A program made the position numbers and the translations under genes. DNA of 64,000 bases from Plumapathes pennacea (taxonomy: Eukaryota > Cnidaria > Anthozoa > Antipatharia > Myriopathidae), in assembly GCA_964036295.1 (NCBI GenBank), contig OZ038463.1, positions 29,189,069 to 29,253,068 of the forward strand. The letters run 5' to 3'. Under the pieces are notes generated by a model, which saw only the letters and a program-made list of their open reading frames with translations, did not search any database and was not told the DNA's origin. This document shows, piece by piece, positions 7,875 to 64,000 of this stretch. Position 1 is the first letter of the stretch. Each line of letters starts with the position of its first letter.

Positions 7875-8399
7875 CTCACCCAGAACATTTTAAATTCTAG
7901 TCTCCCTAAAATGACAGTTCACTTTCACTGTAGTTTTGAGCCAAATTTAAGCGGTTTAAATCAACTATTTGAAGAGTGCCAGCCAGGTGCGAGAAATTTG
8001 TTTGTAGGTGTGAGTTGGCATGAGATCGAAGTTTTTGACCCACAGGCGTGAGACTCATGCATAAGGCGTGAGAATTGGCACATATACTGTACATAGCTCC
8101 TTTTCATAGTTGGAACTTATGTTTGGAAAATCAATAATACACAGTGCTCACCACATATTTTGAAGGTTAACCAAAATAATAATTATTGTTTTCACATATC
8201 ACCAAGCGTGGCTAGCCGCAGTGAGAGTGGCATTCTGGAGTCATGGAACTCAAATTTCTTAACTAGTGAGTTTATAGTGATGATTCTAATTTGCATGTGT
8301 CACACTTGCAGTAAAAGTAGCTGTTGGACAAGGAAAAGGTGTTCGATTCTTACTGAAACCAGCTTTTACATGCACTCGTGAATTTTTCCTAACTTCTAA

Positions 8400-8426
8400 C
8401 CCCCCCCCCCCCCCCCCCCCCCCCCC
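8400..8426. repeat. Poly-C tract
   Basis: An uninterrupted run of 27 C in TOX intron 2. Such runs are prone to assembly and length error. Confidence 0.9.
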
Positions 8427-8814
8427 GGTCAGGGTTGTAACTAATTATCCTTTTCACTCCCAAGAGTGATCAACTTCAATAGAAACAGAGACAACAGGCA
8501 TCTTGGAAATGGTTTATAGTCTTCTTCAGTTTCTCACCAAACATATATCACGTACAGTAAGGACAACCTGGATTGAAATGCCTTGCTCCGATTGAAAGCT
8601 AATAAACTAGCAATACTCTCAGTAGATCACTCATACATTTTCTTCTTCAGTATAAACAGGGTTGTGAGAATCTGTATTTTAAGCTTCACAGTGAAAGGGT
8701 TGTACAAGCATACCCAAGTCAATAGGTACACATATGGAGCAAGATAAAATACCAAATACCTCAGTAAATAGTTACATCTACAGAGCGAGTGAATGTGTGT
8801 AAAATGTCAAATAC

Positions 8815-42389: not shown

Positions 42390-43358
42390 AGACGCCGTTT
42401 TGTGTTAAACACAGATACTTATTCAGAAAGGACAAGCAACAAAGGTCAGTCAGTGGAAATCGAACAATCACCGTGACAAATATATTCTATCCCGTATCTT
42501 GTAACTCGATCACTTCAAGAATGTATTAAAATCTGTATGCTGATCATTTCCCTCGAAGTATTGTTTTAATCCCCGAACGAAGTGAGGGAAATATTTACGA
42601 CGCTAATGCATCATAGTCGGCTCATTTGAAGACTCCAAGCGCGTCGCCATCTCGAAATCTAATGTTCGTGTGTTTGTTTGTGTGTTTGTGTGTTTGTGCG
42701 ATGCGACCTTTTTAGGCCAGGTGCCTAAGGCAATGTCCAAATAAGGCTATCGACGCGTCACCGCCATGTTTTTAAGAAAGATTTGAACAAAGCAACAATT
42801 GTACGTAACTGCGCTCACGAAAATGAATTTGAAAACTAGAAAACTTGAAACAGAACGGTCTCGCGAAGCTCGTCTTCAAAAGAGAAGGGAACAGGCACTT
42901 CAAGAGCAAAAGCGGACCGAAGAAAAGACTCCGCAGAGAAAACAGCGCATGAATGCCGATCGAAAGCGACATGAAGAGAAGCGGGTAACACAGACAACTC
43001 CGCAAAGAGAACAGCGCTTGAAAGCGAATCGACACCTTCAGGAGAAAAAGCGGGCCGAAAAGAAGACTCCGCAAAGACAACAGCGCATGAATGCCGACCA
43101 AAAGCGACATGAACAGAAGCGGGTAACACAGACAACTCCGCAAAGGGAACAGCGCTTGAAAGGAAATCGGGAGCTTCAGACGCCGTTTTGTGTTAAACTC
43201 AGATACTTATTTAGAAAGGACAAGCAACAAAGGTTAGTCAGTGGAAATCGAACAATCACCGTGACAAATATATTCTATCCCGTATAGCTTGTAACTCGGT
43301 CACTTCAAGAATGTATTAAAATCTGTATGCTGATCATTTTCCTTCGAAGTATTGTTTT
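42390..43358. repeat. Direct repeat pair around the second basic ORF
   Basis: About 42391-42570 and 43179-43358 are nearly identical (from ACGCCGTTTTGTGTTAAAC to GAAGTATTGTTTTA). Confidence 0.7.
42823..43287 (+). CDS. Small Arg/Lys/Glu-rich repeat ORF, copy 2
   Basis: 154 aa from ATG, starting MNLKTRKLETERSREARLQK, the same beginning as the frame at 41401. It holds alternating units like EKKTPQRQQRMNADQKRH and KRVTQTTPQREQRLKANR. The C-terminal part (TPFCVKLRYLFRKDKQQR) is also encoded at about 42390-42500. The repeat structure is clear at DNA level. No known domain is recognised, and it could be a transposon-borne remnant. Confidence 0.4.
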   Translation: MNLKTRKLETERSREARLQKRREQALQEQKRTEEKTPQRKQRMNADRKRHEEKRVTQTTPQREQRLKANRHLQEKKRAEKKTPQRQQRMNADQKRHEQKRVTQTTPQREQRLKGNRELQTPFCVKLRYLFRKDKQQRLVSGNRTITVTNIFYPV

Positions 43359-46439: not shown

Positions 46440-47720
46440 ACACTGAAATCAGTGACTGTTGCAGCAGAGCAGCCGTCCATGCTAACTGCACCTCTAGGTG
46501 CTAAGTACACTGCAAAGCAAAGCAAAAATGGAAACCCAGCAGCACAGCCGCCCCTGCTAACTGCACCACTAGGTCCACTAAAATTCAGTGAAATCAGTGG
46601 AAGAAACATAAGCAAGCAAAAATGGACACCTACAGTAGCTGTGCAGCCGCCCTTGCTAGCTAACTGCACCACTAGGTCCACTAAAGACACTGAGACAAAT
46701 TATTGTAGCTATAGCAATAAAACCAGTGGAAGAAACATAAGTAAGCGAAAATGGAAACCTAGCAGCACAGCCGCCCTTGCTAACTGCACTACTAGGTCCG
46801 CTAAATACACTGGCAATAAAATAAGTGGAAGAAACATAAGTAAGGAAAAATGGAAACCTACAGTAGCTGTGCAGCCGCCCTTGCTAGCTAACTGCACCAC
46901 TAGGTTCGCTAGATACACTAATATAAATCATTGTAGCCATGGCAATAAAAAGAGTGGAAGAAACTTAAGTAAGCGAAAATGGAAACCTAGCAGTGCAGCC
47001 GCCCTTGCTAACTGCACCACTAGGTCCACTAAATACACTGATATCAATTAATGTAGCCATGGCAATAAAACCAGTGGAAGAAACGTAAGCAAGCAAAAAT
47101 GGACACCTACAGTAGCTGTGCAGCCGCCCTTGCTAGCTAACTGCACCACTAGGTCCACTAAATACACTGAGACAAATTATTGTAGCTATAGCAATAAAAC
47201 CAGTGGAAGAAACATAAGTAAGCGAAAATGGAAACCTAGCAGCACAGCCGCCCTTGCTAACTGCACCACTAGGTCCGCTAAATACACTGGCAATAAAATA
47301 AGTGGAAGAAACATAAGTAAGCAAAAATGGAAACCTACAGTAGCTGTGCAGCCGCCCTTGCTAGCTAACTGCACCACTAGGTTCGCTAGATACACTAATA
47401 TAAATCATTGTAGCCATGGCAATAAAAAGAGTGGAAGAAACTTAAGTAAGCGAAAATGGAAACCTAGCAGTGCAGCCGCCCTTGCTAACTGCACCACTAG
47501 GTCCACCAAATACACTGATATAAATTAATGTAGCCATGGCAATAAAACCAGTGGAGGAAACGTAAGCAAGCAAAATTGAAAACCTAGCAGTGTAGCCGCC
47601 CCTGCTAACTGCACCACTAGGACCACTAAATACACTGATATAAATTAATGTAGCCATGGCAATAAAACCAGTGGAAGAAACATAAGCAAGCATAATATTG
47701 AAAACCTAGCAGTGTAGCCA
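46440..47720. repeat. Minisatellite with a higher-order unit of about 478 bp
   Basis: Units of roughly 110-130 bp carry CTAACTGCACCACTAGGTCC and AGTGGAAGAAAC. Groups of four recur, for example 46600-47050 and 47080-47530. Open frames through it (CTTCTAGG-derived LANCTTRS and SGRNISK repeats) follow from unit lengths near multiples of three. Confidence 0.8.
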
Positions 47721-49925: not shown

Positions 49926-50601
49926 AAATAATGTGTTTGCAAACACATACAGTATATGGCAGAACCGTGTAATAAGCCATCTCCGGATACCTCAATTAAC
50001 TTGTGAGGGGATATATCCAAAAATGATATTTCTAGTAATAATAATAATGATAATAGTACCAAATATTGCACCAAAGTATGAGGACGAGTCATTGATAACA
50101 ACAAGCACAACAACGAGGAACCAAGATATAAACAACAGTAAACAATTGCCAAGTACAAGCACAATAATACTGCCACTTGTAATGTAATGAAGCAAGACCA
50201 GAGGCCCTTTGATAAAAGAGCAACAAAGCTTATCAATGACAATGGATGCACAATATCATATCCTACGTCCAGCAAAACTTCGAACTTGGAAGGGTTGGAA
50301 TGAAAAGTTTGAAGCATGACTAAAACCTTCTGGATAGCTATAAGCATAACAGCCACCGAAAATTCAGATATTTAGCGGGGAGGGGCTGTAGAGAACAGTT
50401 CATCATTAGCTAGGAACGGAAGTAGTTTCTCCAGCCTCATTGTGAGGCCGCCATGCTTTCCGCAATGTGATAGCTGGCAATTAGTTTTGGAGTAATCGTG
50501 ATAAAAATTTTTCCTCGATGAGTATAAAACCGTAACTATGTAGTGCGATCACAACCAAAACATTCCCGTCAGGGCGACTAATTTTTAGAGAGACCCCGCC
50601 A

Positions 50602-51835
50602 GGTTGTTACGAAAACTAAGACCCATGAAAACGAAGACCTAAGACCTAAGACCTAAGACCCAAAAACGAAGACCCCCCTAAAACTCTCGTAAGACGGCTC
50701 ATAGGAGCCCGCGCTGTGTTCTGTTACTTTGTGCGAGTGTCTGTTTGATTCCACGTGCGTTTTAACGGGGGGTCTTAGTTTTCGTAATAGCCCCTTCGTT
50801 TTACGAAAACTAAGACCCTATCACAAATTAGCCGTAACAAGCATAACTGCTTCCGTGCTGCGACCAGAGCGAACAGTCAAACGAATAAAGTCAAGCGGAG
50901 TTGTCTGTTTGATTCTACGTGCGTTTTAAGAGGGGGTCTTAGTTTTCGTAATAACCCCTTCGTTTTACGAAAACTAAGACCCTATCACAAATTAGCCGTA
51001 ACAAGCACATCTGCCTCCGTGTTGCGACCAGGGTGAACAGTGAAACGAATAAAGTCAAACGGAGGTGTCTGTTTGATTCCACGTGCGTTTTAAGAGGGGG
51101 TCTTAGTTTTCGTGATAACCCCTTCGTTTTACGAAAACTAAGACCCTATCACAAATTAGCCGTAACAAGCACATCTGCCTCCGTGTTGCGACCAGGGTGA
51201 ACAGTGAAACAAATAAAGTCAAACAGAGGTGTCTGTTTGATTCCACGTGCGTTTTAACGGGGGGTCTTAGTTTTCGTAATAACCCCTTCGTTTTACGAAA
51301 ACTAAGACCCTATCACAAATTAGCCGTAACAAGCACATCTGCCTCCGTGTTGCGACCAGGGTGAACAGTGAAACAAATAAAGTCAAACAGAGGTGTCTGT
51401 TTGATTCCACGTGCGTTTTAACGGGGGGTCTTAGTTTTCGTAATAACCCCTTCGTTTTACGAAAACTAAGACCCTATCACAAATTAGCCGTAACAAGCAC
51501 ATCTGCCTCCGTGTTGCGACCAGGGTGAACAGTGAAACGAATAAAGTCAAACAGAGGTGTCTGTTTGATTCCACGTGCGTTTTAACGGGGGGTCTTAGTT
51601 TTCGTAATAACCCCTTCGTTTTACGAAAACTAAGACCCTATCACAAATTAGTCGTAACAAGCATATCTGCTTCTTTGCTGCGACCGAGGCGAACAGTGAA
51701 ACGAATAAAGTCAAACGGAGGTGTCTGTTTGATTCCACGTGCGTTTCAAGAGGGGGTCTTAGTTTTCGTAATATCCCCTTCCTTTTACGAAAACTAAGAC
51801 CCTACCACAATTTAGCCATAATAAACATATGTAAT
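50602..51835 (+). repeat. Left arm of the foldback element (seven 164-bp units)
   Basis: The unit hairpin starts near 50771, 50935, 51099, 51263, 51427, 51591 and 51755, exactly 164 bp apart. The outer part contains a GACCTAA sub-repeat (about 50635-50660). Confidence 0.9.
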
Positions 51836-52698
51836 ATTGATGGGAGGCTGTGCTGTATTTCTTCCTCTAAGTGCGTTTCAACAGAACAGTTTAGCGGATG
51901 TTTTAGTCTACGGTGACGTCCGAAGTACTGGGAGTTCGTAAATACGTAACCAGACAGGAAGCCTCATTGCTTGTGACGTCACAAGCTATAAAATGCAGCG
52001 ATTTTTTTTTTTTTTTATTTTTCTGGGTTAGAGATCTGCATGCGATGATTGGTTGATATTATCATGTGATTTGTGATGACGTTGTGATCACGTGACTTGT
52101 CGAGCAAGCAGTTTCGCCATTTTGAAGACAGCAAGTTGCTTGCCTTAGTTGGCTCTGTGGATTATTTTATGGACCGCTCATCTTACTTACAAACGCATAC
52201 GCCGGCTGCGGTAGACCCATACTAAATTTCATTGAGCGGTTTTGGCTTGGGTCGGTCCGTTCAGCCTCAAAAGCCACATTGAAAGCCATGAAAACAAATG
52301 CAATGAATTTATCAATGAACTGCATAACTATGCACAACTGTACAGAAATGTACGAAGAATCTAATATCCAGAACCTTGAGAACTTGAAGGAACAAGCTGA
52401 ACGAAGGCGCTCGAGATACAAAGACGAGAACCTGTGTAAAGACGGCGATTCTTGACAAGCGCTTGATAGCGGATTATATGGAACTGTTTAGTATGAGGGT
52501 GAACTTGAAGGTACTTTGTATTCTTTTACTTTGTATTATTCTTGCTGATACAAGTAAAGCGTCAGAAAATCTGACTTTTGTTTGGAATCAAAATTTCACT
52601 CTGCGTGCATTTATGTTGTTGTTGCGAGATTTTGGCTCGGTGCCATGAAGGTCAAACAATCAGTGGAACAGATGGCGTTATTATTTGAAAATTAGGAA

Positions 52699-53034
52699 AT
52701 GGCTGAGGAAAAAGTGACCGTTGGTAGATCTTGCTTCGCTCAGTTTTATTGTATTCCCATAAATGTTTATGTGAAAGAAAACCGAAGTCCTCCAAGAAGA
52801 AGTCGTGAGCCAAGCCACGTACCATTGAATTACCTTTCACGCATTTTGAACAAGAGTAGAAAAAGCAGGCGACTAATACAAGAATACATTTCAAAGAATG
52901 TCCCAAAGTCGTCAAAAGTTCATGATTATACCCGAGCTTACGTACTTCACAATGCTAATGCGTTCCGTGAACGTGCATGGAAACAACATGGAAACAATAA
53001 AAAGCCACAGATGGAAATGGAAAGAGAAAATTAG
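52699..53034 (+). CDS. Unrecognised ORF in the foldback core
   Basis: 111 aa from ATG, basic at the C-terminus, with LNKSRKSRRLIQEYISKN. A related stretch, FNKSRKDRQAITSRIFVTEY, is encoded at about 53795-53860, so the core contains two diverged copies of one module. No known domain is recognised; expression is unsupported. Confidence 0.3.
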   Translation: MAEEKVTVGRSCFAQFYCIPINVYVKENRSPPRRSREPSHVPLNYLSRILNKSRKSRRLIQEYISKNVPKSSKVHDYTRAYVLHNANAFRERAWKQHGNNKKPQMEMEREN

Positions 53035-53527
53035 GATCAATAAACCATCGCTGCGAGAAAGCTAGAAGCTCAAAAAGAAGATTGCCAAAAGTAACCGAGG
53101 TGCTAAGATACGTTTGTATTTTAAAATGTGTTAAAACACAGGCATTGCAAGATCAGACGTATTCAGAGATCAAAATCACAGAACCAAGTACAATGGGTTT
53201 TCTCTGTCAAGGGATATAGAAAAAAATTCCGGTCCTTCAGTTGTTGATCCAAACAAAACGATCATCGGTTGGCTTTCTGGATGCACGGAAGCCATACTTT
53301 AGGAGCGATTTTGGCTTGCATTGTTTTTAAGCGTCGGAAGACTTGAAAATAGCCGTACCCAAATGCTTGATGTGTTACCAGCGGGACCCCCGTAAAGTAC
53401 GAAGGGTTGTGTTTTGCAAATGCTCGATTATAGATACCGCTTCAACCAATGTATCTGTGTTCTGAGCAATATTTGTGTGAAAGAACATCGAATAAGTAGT
53501 AGAAGACGTGTCGAAACTTGATAGAAC

Positions 53528-53902
53528 TTGAACTTTTCCCTGCGGGCAGAGCGTCTCCCTTTGTCGGAAACTCTGCGGCTTTGTGTAACGCGCGGCGTAT
53601 ACGAACAGTCGGCGTTTAACTTCGTTTTGCGTGCAGTAAAGGTTCTTTGTTTATTGTCTGAGGATATTGAATTACTAATAGGATTGAGGCAAATATCACG
53701 CGAGATTAAGATACAAGATCTGTCAATGAAATGTCACGAGCATAATATCATAGAACGGGGAATCCCGAATCATCAGGTACTTAGCTTTCACTCACGCCGC
53801 TTTAACAAAAGCAGGAAAGACCGGCAGGCGATTACATCGAGAATATTTGTCACTGAATACCTCGAAGTCTTCAAGGTTGATATCCGACTATCCGAGCCGT
53901 AA
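53528..53902 (+). pseudogene. Second, diverged module copy in the foldback core
   Basis: An open frame without a good ATG start. DNA similarity to 52795-52940 is visible through TTTCAC-CGC, AACAA-AG-AG-AAA and onward. It may be the remains of a larger coding region carried by the element. Confidence 0.3.
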
Positions 53903-54127
53903 TGTTCGCTCCACAAGCCCGTGATGCACGCCTTTGTTGTCACGGTATTCAAACGTCTGCAGCTTCCGATAGAGATTAATTTCGTATCGACCCAGAATTT
54001 TGCGTTAAAGCTTAATGCATAGCAGTCTTGAACATATTAGTGATCAGACTTGTACATGTAGGATGCGTAACGTCTGAGATGGCTTTTTCATACGAAGTAA
54101 TTTCATCATGGGAAGTGTCATGTTTTA

Positions 54128-54460
54128 GGCCCCGTCCACACTACGCCGGATAAATTTGAAAACGCAACTTTATTCTTACGGTTAGGAAAACGCTCTTCAA
54201 AGTGGATAAATTTGAAAGCGCCGGCTTTGCGTTTTGGTGTGGACGAAAAACATTTTGAAAACGGAACTTTTCGAAAACCCTGACTCACGTGGCCACGTCA
54301 AGTGGTTTCAAAGATTGTCAGGGACGTTTGTAGAGCAATAACAATACATTTGGGCCCGGAAACATTTTATCCGTTTTCCAGTGTGGACGGAAAACATTTC
54401 TTGCGTTTTCAGAGTGAAAGTTGCGTTTTCAAATTTATCCGGCGTAGTGTGGACGGGGCC
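54128..54460. mobile_element. 333-bp MITE, PIF/Harbinger-like, TTA target duplication
   Basis: Inverted ends GGCCCCGTCCACACTACGCC, continuing inward through GGATAAATTTGAAAACGCAA, lie between TTA at 54125-54127 and 54461-54463. It is nested in the foldback core, so it inserted after the core was assembled or was carried in. Confidence 0.8.
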
Positions 54461-55297
54461 TTAATGTGTTACAGCTACTTGAACATGATGCACACGCTGG
54501 GAAGATGAGATAAGGCTATTACGCTGTCTTACAGCTACTTAAGATGTCGGGTATTCCCCAGTCAATCCCATTACAAAATGACAACACAGTTCCTCCACAA
54601 AACATGTCAGCTTGAAAATTCACTCAACAAGGTTGCCAGGTTGTATAGAAAGCGTCACACAAGTACTGTCACGTGCATCGGAAAGCAATGAAAACTGGGT
54701 TGTTGCAAACGAAGAATATTCCTACGGGGCCTTCGATAATTGTTTTCTCTCAATTATTATAATACACTTTTTCGTGAATATCTGTTTGACCAAAATTAGA
54801 AGAAAAGAGGGCAAGAAAAATAAAGGGAGCTCTTGGATCCGTCATTTGCAAAAACTGACTCGGCTATAATATCTTTTGCATATAAACGCACGACAAAAGT
54901 TCCTCTCCCGGGACCCCGCGTGTCTCTATTCATTGTACTAATGACGTCACAAGCGCACTGGCCACGGGCCTGTCTTGTTCATTGTAAAATCACGTATATT
55001 CATCAATAACAGCATAATTGGCATTGTTATGGAATGTGATACAATATTTTGATTTACGATTTATACATTATGGCGAAAAACAGGTTACAGGCTCGAAAGA
55101 ATCGAAAGAACATAAATTGTGACATTGTAGAGAATACCTCAATCTTATAGCAATTAACACTTGTCAATGGTGAATAAAAGCTTACAAAGTATTGTTTCCT
55201 TGGGGCACCGCTTCATAAGACAGCAATTTAAAAAGTTCTCTGCATAATGTTTAGAGTTCATATATTTCAAATTTGAAAACCAAAAAAAGAGAAACTT

Positions 55298-55568
55298 TTA
55301 AAAATCCTTGAGAAAAAGGCATTGCTCGTACGTCTCCTTGCTCAAAATTTTCTTAATGACAACCTTCTCTCCCTCACAGCTTCCTCTTTTCGCAACAAAC
55401 ACAGAGCCGAACGTGCCTTGACCAATGGGATCTTCTTTTTCTATTTATACTACGATCTTCTTTTTCGAACAGCTCCGTCCAGTTGAATAAGGGAACATTT
55501 GCGCCCAACAGGGATCCTAGCGCGTCTGGTGCCGTAGATGGCTTCAAAGTTGGAAACTTGGAAGACAT
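55298..55568 (-). pseudogene. Captured protein-kinase N-lobe fragment
   Basis: From ATG at 55568 the frame runs through ALGSLLGANVPLFNWTELFE. After a 25-bp tandem duplication (GATCTTCTTTTTC at 55429-55441 and again at 55454-55466) the kinase frame continues as DPIGQGTFGSVFVAKRG and then EKVVIKKILSKETYEQ. GxGxFGxV is the glycine-rich ATP loop and VVIKK holds the ATP-binding Lys of the VAIK motif. The reading stops soon after (LKDF, TAA), so the rest of the kinase is absent. The duplication shifts the frame by one, so even this piece is broken. It looks like a gene fragment picked up by the transposon. A transposon-native kinase is a less likely alternative. Confidence 0.65.
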
Positions 55569-56035
55569 ATTTGCTCTATCAGGTCACATTGCGAAGAGTA
55601 TAGTGTGGAACTAAACATGCAAATTTTGTATGTGCGACGCGAACCCCAGGAGCGTGAGATTTTCTTTTTGTCCGATTGATGATGTCAACTTCCGGTTTAA
55701 AAGGCTTCTCGATTTGGACAACTGACAGTTATCGAAATACCTTTACTGTTTTTATTTATTTTTTATCATTAAGCAAATGAAATAGTAAGCTAAAATATCA
55801 AAAGTCATTTACGAAATCAGAATGACCACACGCTAATTTTTATTACTCCTGACTTCTTTACTCTTTTGCATCTGTCAAAGGTGCGAATGTCGCAGGAATG
55901 TGCGACATTTCTTCGTTTAATTAAATTGATAATGCATGCAATTATACTTCCTCGCACTTCTGACCGCAAATATGCTTGTTATTTGTACCAACCTATTGGG
56001 GTCTTGTCTAGATGTGCTTGTTATGGCAAAGTTGT

Positions 56036-57076
56036 GATAGGGTCTTAGTTTTCGTAAAACGAAGGGGCTATTACGAAAACTAAGACCCCCTCTTAAAACG
56101 CACGTAGAACCAAACAGACACCTCCGTTTGACTTTATTCGTTTCACTGTTCGCCTCGGTCGCAACACGGAGGCAGATGTGCTTGTTACGGCTAATTTGTG
56201 ATAGGGTCTTAGTTTTCGTAAAACGAAGGGGTTATTACGAAAACTAAGACCCCCTCTTAAAACGCACTTTGAACCAAACAGACACCTCCGTTTGGCTTTA
56301 TTCGTTTCACTGTTCGCCTCGGTCGCAGCAAAGAAGCAGATATGCTTGTTACGACTAATTTGTGATAGGGTCTTAGTTTTCGTAAAACGAAGGGGTTATT
56401 ACGAAAACTAAGACCCCCTCTTAAAACGCACGTGGAATCAAACAGACACCTCCGTTTGACTTTATTCGTTTCACTGTTCACCCTGGTCGCAACACGGAGG
56501 CAGATGTGCTTGTTACGGCTAATTTGTGATAGGGTCTTAGTTTTCGTAAAACGAAGGGGTTATTACGAAAGCTAAGACCCCCTCTTAAAACGCACGTGGA
56601 ATCAAACAGACACCTCCGTTTGACTTTATTCGTTTCACTGTTCACCCTGGTCGCAACACGGAGGCAGATGTGCTTGTTACGGCTAATTTGTGATAGGGTC
56701 TTAGTTTTCGTAAAACGAAGGGGTTATTACGAAAACTAAGACCCCCTCTTAAAACGCACGTAGAATCAAACAGACAACTCCGCTTGACTTTATTCGTTTG
56801 ACTGTTCGCTCTGGTCGCAGCACGGAAGCAGTTATGCTTGTTACGGCTAATTTGTGATAGGGTCTTAGTTTTCGTAAAACGAAGGGGTTATTACGAAAAC
56901 TAAGACCCCCCGTTGAAACGCACGTGGAATCAAACAGACACTCGCACAAAGTAACAGAACACAGCGCGGGCTCCTATGAGCCGTCTTACGAGAGTTTTAG
57001 GGGGGTCTTCGTTTTTGGGTCTTAGGTCTTAGGTCTTAGGTCTTCGTTTTCATGGGTCTTAGTTTTCGTAACAACC
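56036..57076 (-). repeat. Right arm of the foldback element (six 164-bp units)
   Basis: Unit hairpins near 56041, 56205, 56369, 56533, 56697 and 56861, inverted relative to the left arm. The outer tip mirrors the left tip through the GACCTAA sub-repeat (here TTAGGTC). Confidence 0.9.
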
Positions 57077-57591
57077 GACCCCGCCATGCATATACTGTAC
57101 ACATACAATTGTGAGAACGGTGAATACGACGGACAGCAACTGACCTAACACACAATCGGGTAGCATCAGAAATATTATGCTGAGCAATTGCAGGCCGAGG
57201 GTATGATGGAGAATAAATTAACACTCGGCGATAATATAACCCGAACACACCAACATGTGGCGGCGGTGAAACAATAAAACTAAACGGAGTACGATCGAAT
57301 TGGCAAACATATGGAATGGGAAACATATGTAACATGCCATACATAAGTTCGTTGCAATGTGGAATACAAAGAGGGGTAAAATACATCACCTCACCGCGTT
57401 GAGCAAATTGCGTCCGGCCTTGAAGACACCCTGAAAAGAGTGAATGATTGTAATGACCCACGTGTTATCCCCAGGTCTCCTCGCCATCGGCCAATCCCCA
57501 AAGGAATACATTGTGCAATCTAGCGTTACTATAATAAGGCAGATCTAATTAAAGGCATAAAATTCCTATTTGCGGGCAAATATTTTCTTTA

Positions 57592-63402: not shown

Positions 63403-63593
63403 GTACGGGAAAATAGAATTCTAGATTTATCTAGTGTTGCATATGCCGTGAATCTTTTACATTACTTTTGTGGTAATGCAATGGTAATGCCCCTTGTATG
63501 CTAACTATAGTTGTTGTAACACGTATAATATAGCATTGTTAGGTTGTTGTAGGCGTTGCTGTGCATTATTTTGCTGAACGCTCAAAAATATGT

Positions 63594-63911
63594 TAGGCAT
63601 TTTATATGTTAGTGCTTTTTATATGTTAGGCCTTTTATATGCTAGTGCTTTTTATATGTTAGGCCTTTTATATGTTAGTGCTTTTTATATGTTAGGCCTT
63701 TTATATGTTAGTGCTTTTTATATGTTAGGCCTTTTATATGTTAGGCCTTTTATATGTTAGTGCTTTTTATATGTTAGGCCTTTTATATGTTAGGCCTTTT
63801 ATATGTTAGTGCTTTTTATATGTTAGGCCTTTTATATGTTAGGCCTTTTATATGTTAGGCCTTTTATATGTTAGTGCTTTTATATGTTAGGCCTTTTATA
63901 TGTTAGTGCTT
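63594..63911. repeat. Minisatellite, 16- and 17-bp units
   Basis: Two alternating units, TTTTATATGTTAGGCC and TTTTTATATGTTAGTGC, in irregular order, about 19 copies. Confidence 0.9.
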
Positions 63912-64000
63912 TTTGCGCATGATACTATTATTCTGCAGTTGTCGTTGCATATGAGTGAGTCATTTCCTTTTTTTTGGTAATGCTCCTTGTATTATAGTTG

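Follow-up and report, generated by a model that had tools for sequence, protein, structure and literature searches.

Although described decades ago, Foldback elements often lack an assigned enzyme or an explanation for the repetition of their arms, and Mutator-like elements (MULEs) with foldback or tandem-repeat arms are already known, namely Tm1 of root-knot nematodes, Tetris of Drosophila virilis and the plant MULEs with terminal inverted repeats (TIRs) in tandem. The element considered here lies at positions 50602-57076 of a stretch of 64,000 nucleotides from the antipatharian Plumapathes pennacea (contig OZ038463.1), hereafter the window, and is very probably a non-autonomous cut-and-paste MULE bearing Foldback-style arms, which depends for its movement on a transposase supplied in trans by a larger relative, for instance E1, a coding copy of the same genome. 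A first-pass annotation, made from the letters of the window, had proposed that the locus combines Mutator-like and Foldback features; this is the best reading here, the combination itself being already published according to the available text of the reports on Tm1 (PMC3169594) and Tetris (PMC4079207).

As described in the accessible parts of the respective articles, the closest systems resemble the present family in different respects. Tm1, a Mutator/Foldback element, has inverted arms in which the tandem repeats vary, target duplications that measure 9 bp in most cases, and non-autonomous copies together with a copy encoding a MULE-type transposase, but its units measure 13-15 bp, its outer motifs are asymmetric and its transposase is Phantom-like, of 496 aa, with a FLYWCH finger, no kinase being mentioned in those parts (PMC3169594), whereas here the units measure 154-167 bp with a head-to-head tip pair and the transposase frames 899-945 codons. 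Tetris is similar in anatomy, with arms of ~220-bp tandem repeats and 8-10 bp duplications, but its report gives, as far as available, no autonomous partner and describes a flanking domain with a 37-bp stretch in common with the unit (PMC4079207), while here a coding relative is known and each unit holds two tips. In plant tandem-TIR MULEs, the end sequences are duplicated in tandem at both ends, with target duplications and an ability to multiply, yet this concerns two, sometimes three, whole ends (PMC3310237) and not, as here, up to eleven motif pairs per arm (copy E5), set head to head. Galileo displays long arms with ~210-bp internal tandem repeats in varying number, for which secondary binding sites have been proposed, but its transposase belongs to the P superfamily (PMC3573991). 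Rehavkus shows 9-bp duplications and a minisatellite near one end, but carries a PHD finger (PMC6446971), to which no match was found up to E 1 in Pfam for the transposases of E1 and of two related families, A and B. Ghost MULEs include cnidarian members with a 177-bp TIR, and a SWIM domain occurs in the arthropod members (PMC6446971). The coral miniature inverted-repeat transposable elements (MITEs) that form tandem arrays are piggyBac-related (PMC2872659). The present family is ordinary in kind, i.e., MULE-like with Foldback arms, and stands out by its paired-tip satellite units and its accessory genes; neither a MULE with a kinase gene nor a paired-tip unit was found in the open-licence literature searched, and the word "kinase" is missing from the main texts of PMC6446971, PMC13359780 and PMC6431247.

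Both edges of the element had been placed to the base at first pass, and this is borne out: the tips at the two ends are exact inverses and the sequence GACCCCGCCA, present twice in the window on the plus strand, forms a perfect 10-bp target duplication at 50592-50601 (left) and 57077-57086 (right). When the genome, i.e., 290 Mb in 24 contigs, was searched with the flanks joined via a single copy of these 10 bp, seven other loci matched query positions 1-135, six at 96-99% identity and one at 87% with gaps, and the window site itself appeared as two halves only. Since these seven loci carry the site without the element, the latter was inserted into one copy of a dispersed repeat, and the extent of the 10-bp duplication is confirmed to the base. 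This host repeat, of which at least seven other copies exist, covers 50540-50601 and 57087-57140 of the window.

The arms are inverted arrays of a 164-bp unit, as had been noticed, Tandem Repeats Finder returning this period at 50737-51821 (6.6 copies) and 56010-56941 (5.7 copies). On the left, the outer terminal domain with the tip GGTTGTTACGAAAACTAAGACCC (50602-50766, plus strand) leads into the arm array (50737-51830, plus strand, seven head-to-head tip pairs); on the right, the inverted array (56010-56941, minus strand, six head-to-head tip pairs) leads into the outer terminal domain and tip (56912-57076, minus strand), an inverse match to the left domain. Both arrays were delimited from the tandem period, the motif pairs and the comparison of units. 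The count of seven and six units given at first pass holds for the head-to-head pairs, whereas complete 164-bp units number six and five by this cut. From the tips inward, the two arms agree at 163/164, 163/164, 164/164, 160/164, 147/164, 156/164 and 75/83 positions, and BLAST aligned them at 96.3% over 1066 bp. As to the hairpin ascribed to each unit, one unit folded as single-stranded DNA gave z = -3.25, with 1 of 200 shuffles equally good.

Genome-wide, the outer 165 bp have at least 42 matches and the 164-bp unit at least 182. From such tip and unit loci, 20 stretches were fetched (two being halves of E1) and gave 10 two-ended copies, the window element, copy E3, being the eleventh; stretches in which both tips were not in view (L037, L039, L040, L043, L044, L046, L048, L049 and L050) stand outside the count of duplications. 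The test of common edges suggested at first pass turned out in favour of the element, as all 11 two-ended copies share the tips, with few base changes, and are bounded by duplications of 9-10 bp, nine of them perfect over 10 bp, that of E9 of 10 bp with one mismatch and that of E1 of 9 bp. The copies span 482 bp to about 9.9 kb, and three small ones (482, 500 and 648 bp) also have duplications, although they carry only 2-3 motifs on each strand.

Three copies, i.e., E2, E3 and E4, have in common a joint at which E1 positions ~1388 and ~7982 meet, and are 99.6-99.8% identical over 1.03-1.17 kb, so that one deletion derivative has multiplied recently; the window element is a non-autonomous deletion derivative of an E1-like parent. 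In the window, the joint lies in the right interior flank (54978-56009), which is 99.8% identical to E2 and 99.6% to E4 over 1032 bp, and the left interior flank (51831-51968) aligns with the sequence beside the left arm of E1; for this short left flank the value is 95.4-96.7% over 152 bp, partly because the alignment extends into a later insert.

These sister copies also exhibit the variation in unit number that had been anticipated, their left arms holding two (E3), three (E2) and four (E4) copies of one identical central unit, in the order unit 1, unit 2, identical central units and two distinct inner units, while each right arm has five full units, and units at corresponding positions show 0-1 differences. 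The first unit of the left arm shows 0/164 differences from that of the right arm in E2, E3 and E4, and a single one in E5, against 11 differences between unit 1 and unit 2 in E2, E3 and E4; in E1, the first units of the two arms have 9 differences, so no likeness of the outer parts is seen between its arms. The differences by single-unit copies and the matching outer units point to two processes, namely a stepwise gain or loss within an array and a likeness of the outer parts between arms. The idea that recombination keeps the arms alike survives for the outer ~500 bp, nearly identical between the window arms, but not for the inner units, which were amplified separately in each arm.

The most distinctive feature of the arms is the arrangement of the tip motif within the unit. 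A 17-bp tip core occurs 14 + 14 times in the window element, as 13 head-to-head pairs and two tips, and, with up to 2 mismatches allowed, is absent from the rest of the 64-kb window; for a 13-bp core, letter shuffling of the element (200 shuffles) gave a mean of 0.01 matches per shuffle. Measured start to start with the 13-bp core, the spacing is 36 bp in all pairs of the window (13/13) and of E1 (12/12). The same arrangement occurs in the two related families, (i) A, whose arms of about 1.0 kb, 95.9% identical and built of a 154-bp unit, are bounded by the 9-bp duplication ATAATATTG, and (ii) B, with a 167-bp unit on one side; there, with one base of the core different, the spacing is 37 bp in 12/12 and 4/4 pairs, respectively, or 36 bp in family A with a 12-bp core. 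Counted from the element end, the core starts at base 11 in both tips of the window element, in both tips of A and in the left tip of E1, and at base 10 in the altered right tip of E1. Inspected by eye, the joints look like two ends set back to back and separated by 3-4 bp; in the window, one half is the true 23-bp right end except for one base and the other half is more degraded, and in family A both halves are degraded. The longest alignments between arms reach 19 bp for A and the window, 54 bp at 74% for A and B, and 71 bp at 72% (E 0.09) for B and the window, none covering a unit. Conservation of the paired-tip geometry in three families, despite hardly alike units, suggests a constraint on the pair. 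An origin of the 154-167 bp unit length in nucleosome phasing would be speculative.

This bears on the alternative that the arms are a satellite parasite of the ends, with units spread by slippage and without a role in transposition, which we regard as somewhat unlikely. It would account for central units numbering 2, 3 or 4 in otherwise matching copies, and for the duplications around the copies of 482, 500 and 648 bp, with their few motifs; yet no alignment between the arms of the window element, A and B extends across a unit, and nonetheless each keeps the head-to-head pair at 36-37 bp in every case (25/25 for E1 and the window, 12/12 for A and 4/4 for B).

The remark made at first pass, that no transposase is visible in the element, leaving its autonomous partner to be found, can be supplemented, as the search for a coding element with matching tips yielded a candidate in the same genome, namely E1 on contig C9, of ~9.9 kb, with the same arms and the same tips, the right one being altered. 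E1 contains a 945-codon open frame (L031:2341-5178, minus strand), a 423-codon kinase frame and a 285-codon frame, ORF2. In Pfam, the 945-codon frame matched MULE with E 0.002 (18.9 bits for a cut-off of 27.6) and SWIM with E 0.11, the kinase frame matched Pkinase with E 1.2e-35, and ORF2 had no match. The transposases of A (C1:10267492) and B (C3:7566805) are 47% identical to that of E1, and a further relative, L055, in which no tandem-repeat arms were seen, is 31% identical; the Pfam MULE scores are 13.4 bits for A, 14.1 for B and, the best, 23.8 for L055 (E 6e-5), all below the 27.6 cut-off, and the SWIM matches of E1, A and B (E 0.0044-0.11) are also below the cut-off. Aligning the three transposases of E1, A and B revealed invariant columns at D339, D408 and E550, which can be read as a DDE triad, and at C741/C743/C752/H754, as a putative SWIM motif, a zinc finger common in MULEs though not present in all of them. 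Searches against solved structures by sequence gave none for the transposase (E up to 5) or for ORF2 (E up to 1), whereas the kinase frame matched 93 distinct sequences, with kinases among the 60 listed, and two scans of viral contigs with two short patterns each confirmed no viral relative of the transposase or of ORF2.

Among 50 genome matches, E1 is the sole full-length open copy of its own family's transposase, shorter open fragments existing as well. Loci with transposase matches of at least 75% lie within about 1.8 kb of a listed tip or unit match in 12 of 13 cases, E1 included (the exception being C1:41998113), and kinase fragments occur in the window, E2, E4, E5, L037 and L050, which suggests that the two genes belong to the family rather than to one chance insertion. 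In the window, the kinase remnant (55304-55583, minus strand) comprises codons 1-85 in two pieces, the frame being broken near codon 40-43. Compared with E1, transposase fragments have a ratio of nonsynonymous to synonymous change (pN/pS) of 0.22-0.53 in 8/8 stretches, some of which overlap and are not independent, with one-sided p<0.05 in 5/8 and 7.9e-7 for the longest; kinase fragments have pN/pS of 0.14-0.33 in the 4 stretches with synonymous changes; another six short kinase stretches, two apiece from the window, E2 and E4, lack such changes and are uninformative. These ratios support constraint well in the case of the transposase and do no more than suggest it for the kinase.

The kinase of E1 retains the VVIKK, HRD, DFG and APE motifs. 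With conserved N-x-CAFL and DTH columns, ORF2 is a possible cysteine protease, and may resemble herpesvirus-type deubiquitinases in its Cys and Asp-x-His. The label "Ovarian Tumour Gene" denotes a protease family. As the cnidarian MuDR-6_HM is tabulated under this label in the available part of a survey (PMC6446971), a precedent for a protease accessory in an animal MULE may exist.

A second alternative holds that host genes were captured by chance, in the style of Pack-MULEs, to give kinase and protease-like frames with no function for the element. MULEs often capture host genes, as stated in the accessible text of two reports (PMC6446971, PMC6431247), the catalytic motifs of the kinase are altered in the relatives (NFG in A, HRN in B), and the kinase pN/pS, below 1 in 4 stretches, reaches p<0.05 in 1/4 only. 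Against this, kinase, protease-like and transposase frames follow in that order and on one strand in E1, A and B, despite identities between E1 and A of only 38% for the kinase, 37% for ORF2 and 47% for the transposase, and in A the kinase and ORF2-like parts are fused in a single open frame of 610 codons; capture by chance is judged unlikely. The suggestion that the transposase is not the family's own, E1 being a Foldback-type element with an inserted or captured unrelated MULE gene and another transposase moving the family, is very improbable: Foldback-like arms did arise around different transposases (Galileo, of P type, in the available text of PMC3169594) and the Pfam MULE scores are under the cut-off, but 12/13 close transposase loci carry or adjoin the same tips or units, the two 47%-identical relatives also stand beside paired-tip arms, and duplications of 9-10 bp fit MULEs.

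Assignment of the window element to non-autonomous MULEs served by an E1-like transposase is based on sub-threshold Pfam matches, motifs and duplication length. Target duplications of 8-11 bp are a mark of MULEs, and they measure 9-10 bp in 11/11 two-ended copies and 9 bp in family A, with element-free sites in support; long inverted arms of tandem repeats in variable number, the mark of Foldback elements, are equally present. Duplications of 10 bp also characterise IS4EU, which was for this reason considered as a possible alternative assignment. As for the FLYWCH finger, a Phantom trait, no match up to E 1 in Pfam was found in the transposases of E1, A and B, where unannotated upstream exons could be missed. 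Several points weigh against the assignment: (i) no Pfam MULE match reaches the curated cut-off in E1, A, B or L055, (ii) a more distant relative, L056, encodes a protein without any Pfam match up to E 1, (iii) stops interrupt the transposase matches of A (1 stop) and B (2 stops), the open frames having 899 and 900 codons, (iv) the last bases of the right tip of E1 are changed, and E1 may therefore be unable to move itself, and (v) the copies were picked by their tips, so that the count of duplications is not a random sample.

Respective to mechanism, the transposase would bind the 17-23 bp tip motif, each 164-bp unit would then provide a pair of such sites, arranged like two abutted ends, and with so many sites the ends would be more likely to pair. 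The arms may grow and shrink via unequal exchange or replication slippage, and their outer parts may become alike through conversion between arms or through repair-associated copying. The kinase and possible cysteine protease of the coding relatives probably assist transposition or evasion of host control. Taken further, and as a tentative proposal, the family may represent an undescribed MULE lineage with two linked traits, namely satellite-like arms in which every unit is an abutted pair of ends, the 36-37 bp being kept as the unit body is replaced, and an accessory kinase and possible cysteine protease upstream of the transposase, forming a single frame in one family. The units would stem from head-to-head joints of ends, i.e., from a circular or end-joined transposition intermediate captured and amplified, and an accessory protein would modify host proteins to permit transposition. 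If true, a kinase and a possible protease kept with the transposase through deep divergence would make this an uncommon DNA transposon with its own signalling or protein-processing enzymes. As sister copies that differ by single units occur in one genome together with small derivatives of 2-3 motifs per strand, coding relatives and element-free sites, the growth and role of the arms are directly testable.

In the interior of the window element, ~3.0 kb (51969-54977) correspond to another, unrelated high-copy repeat inserted later, which the first-pass annotation had not noticed, E1, E2 and E4 being without it at that site. Its edges have TT in common, with no inverted ends seen, and the repeat is abundant and young, with at least 40 genome matches, its own copy included, at 98-100% among 1868 candidates, 2138 of its 3009 bp having been used as query. 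A captured host gene, as in a Pack-MULE interior, was considered for this insert and ruled out, since the 2138 of 3009 bp searched belong to a high-copy repeat and not to a unique gene. At its left edge lies an 18-bp palindrome, GCTTGTGACGTCACAAGC, and it contains a MITE-like repeat with 48-bp inverted ends (54124-54464).

Regarding the distant relatives, no kinase or ORF2 match was found within the 9 kb fetched for L055 and L056. The L055 transposase relative stands between direct 741-bp repeats (103-843 and 8010-8749), 99.5% identical, which could be long-terminal-repeat-like or a recent duplication. L056 (1960-7255), 24% identical to E1, has arms of 7-bp repeats (CGGGTAR), the 9-bp duplication TTGGGAATC and an 861-codon open frame. 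A spaced repeat pair of 138 bp is present at 994-1204 of L054. Elsewhere in the window, tandem repeats were observed (i) at 42898-43169, with a period of 138 bp (69 bp), (ii) at 46515-47719, as a complex array with periods of 99, 120, 129, 228, 249, 348 and 477 bp, and (iii) at 63588-63914, as 10 copies of a 33-bp repeat resembling ATATGTTAGGCCTTTT.

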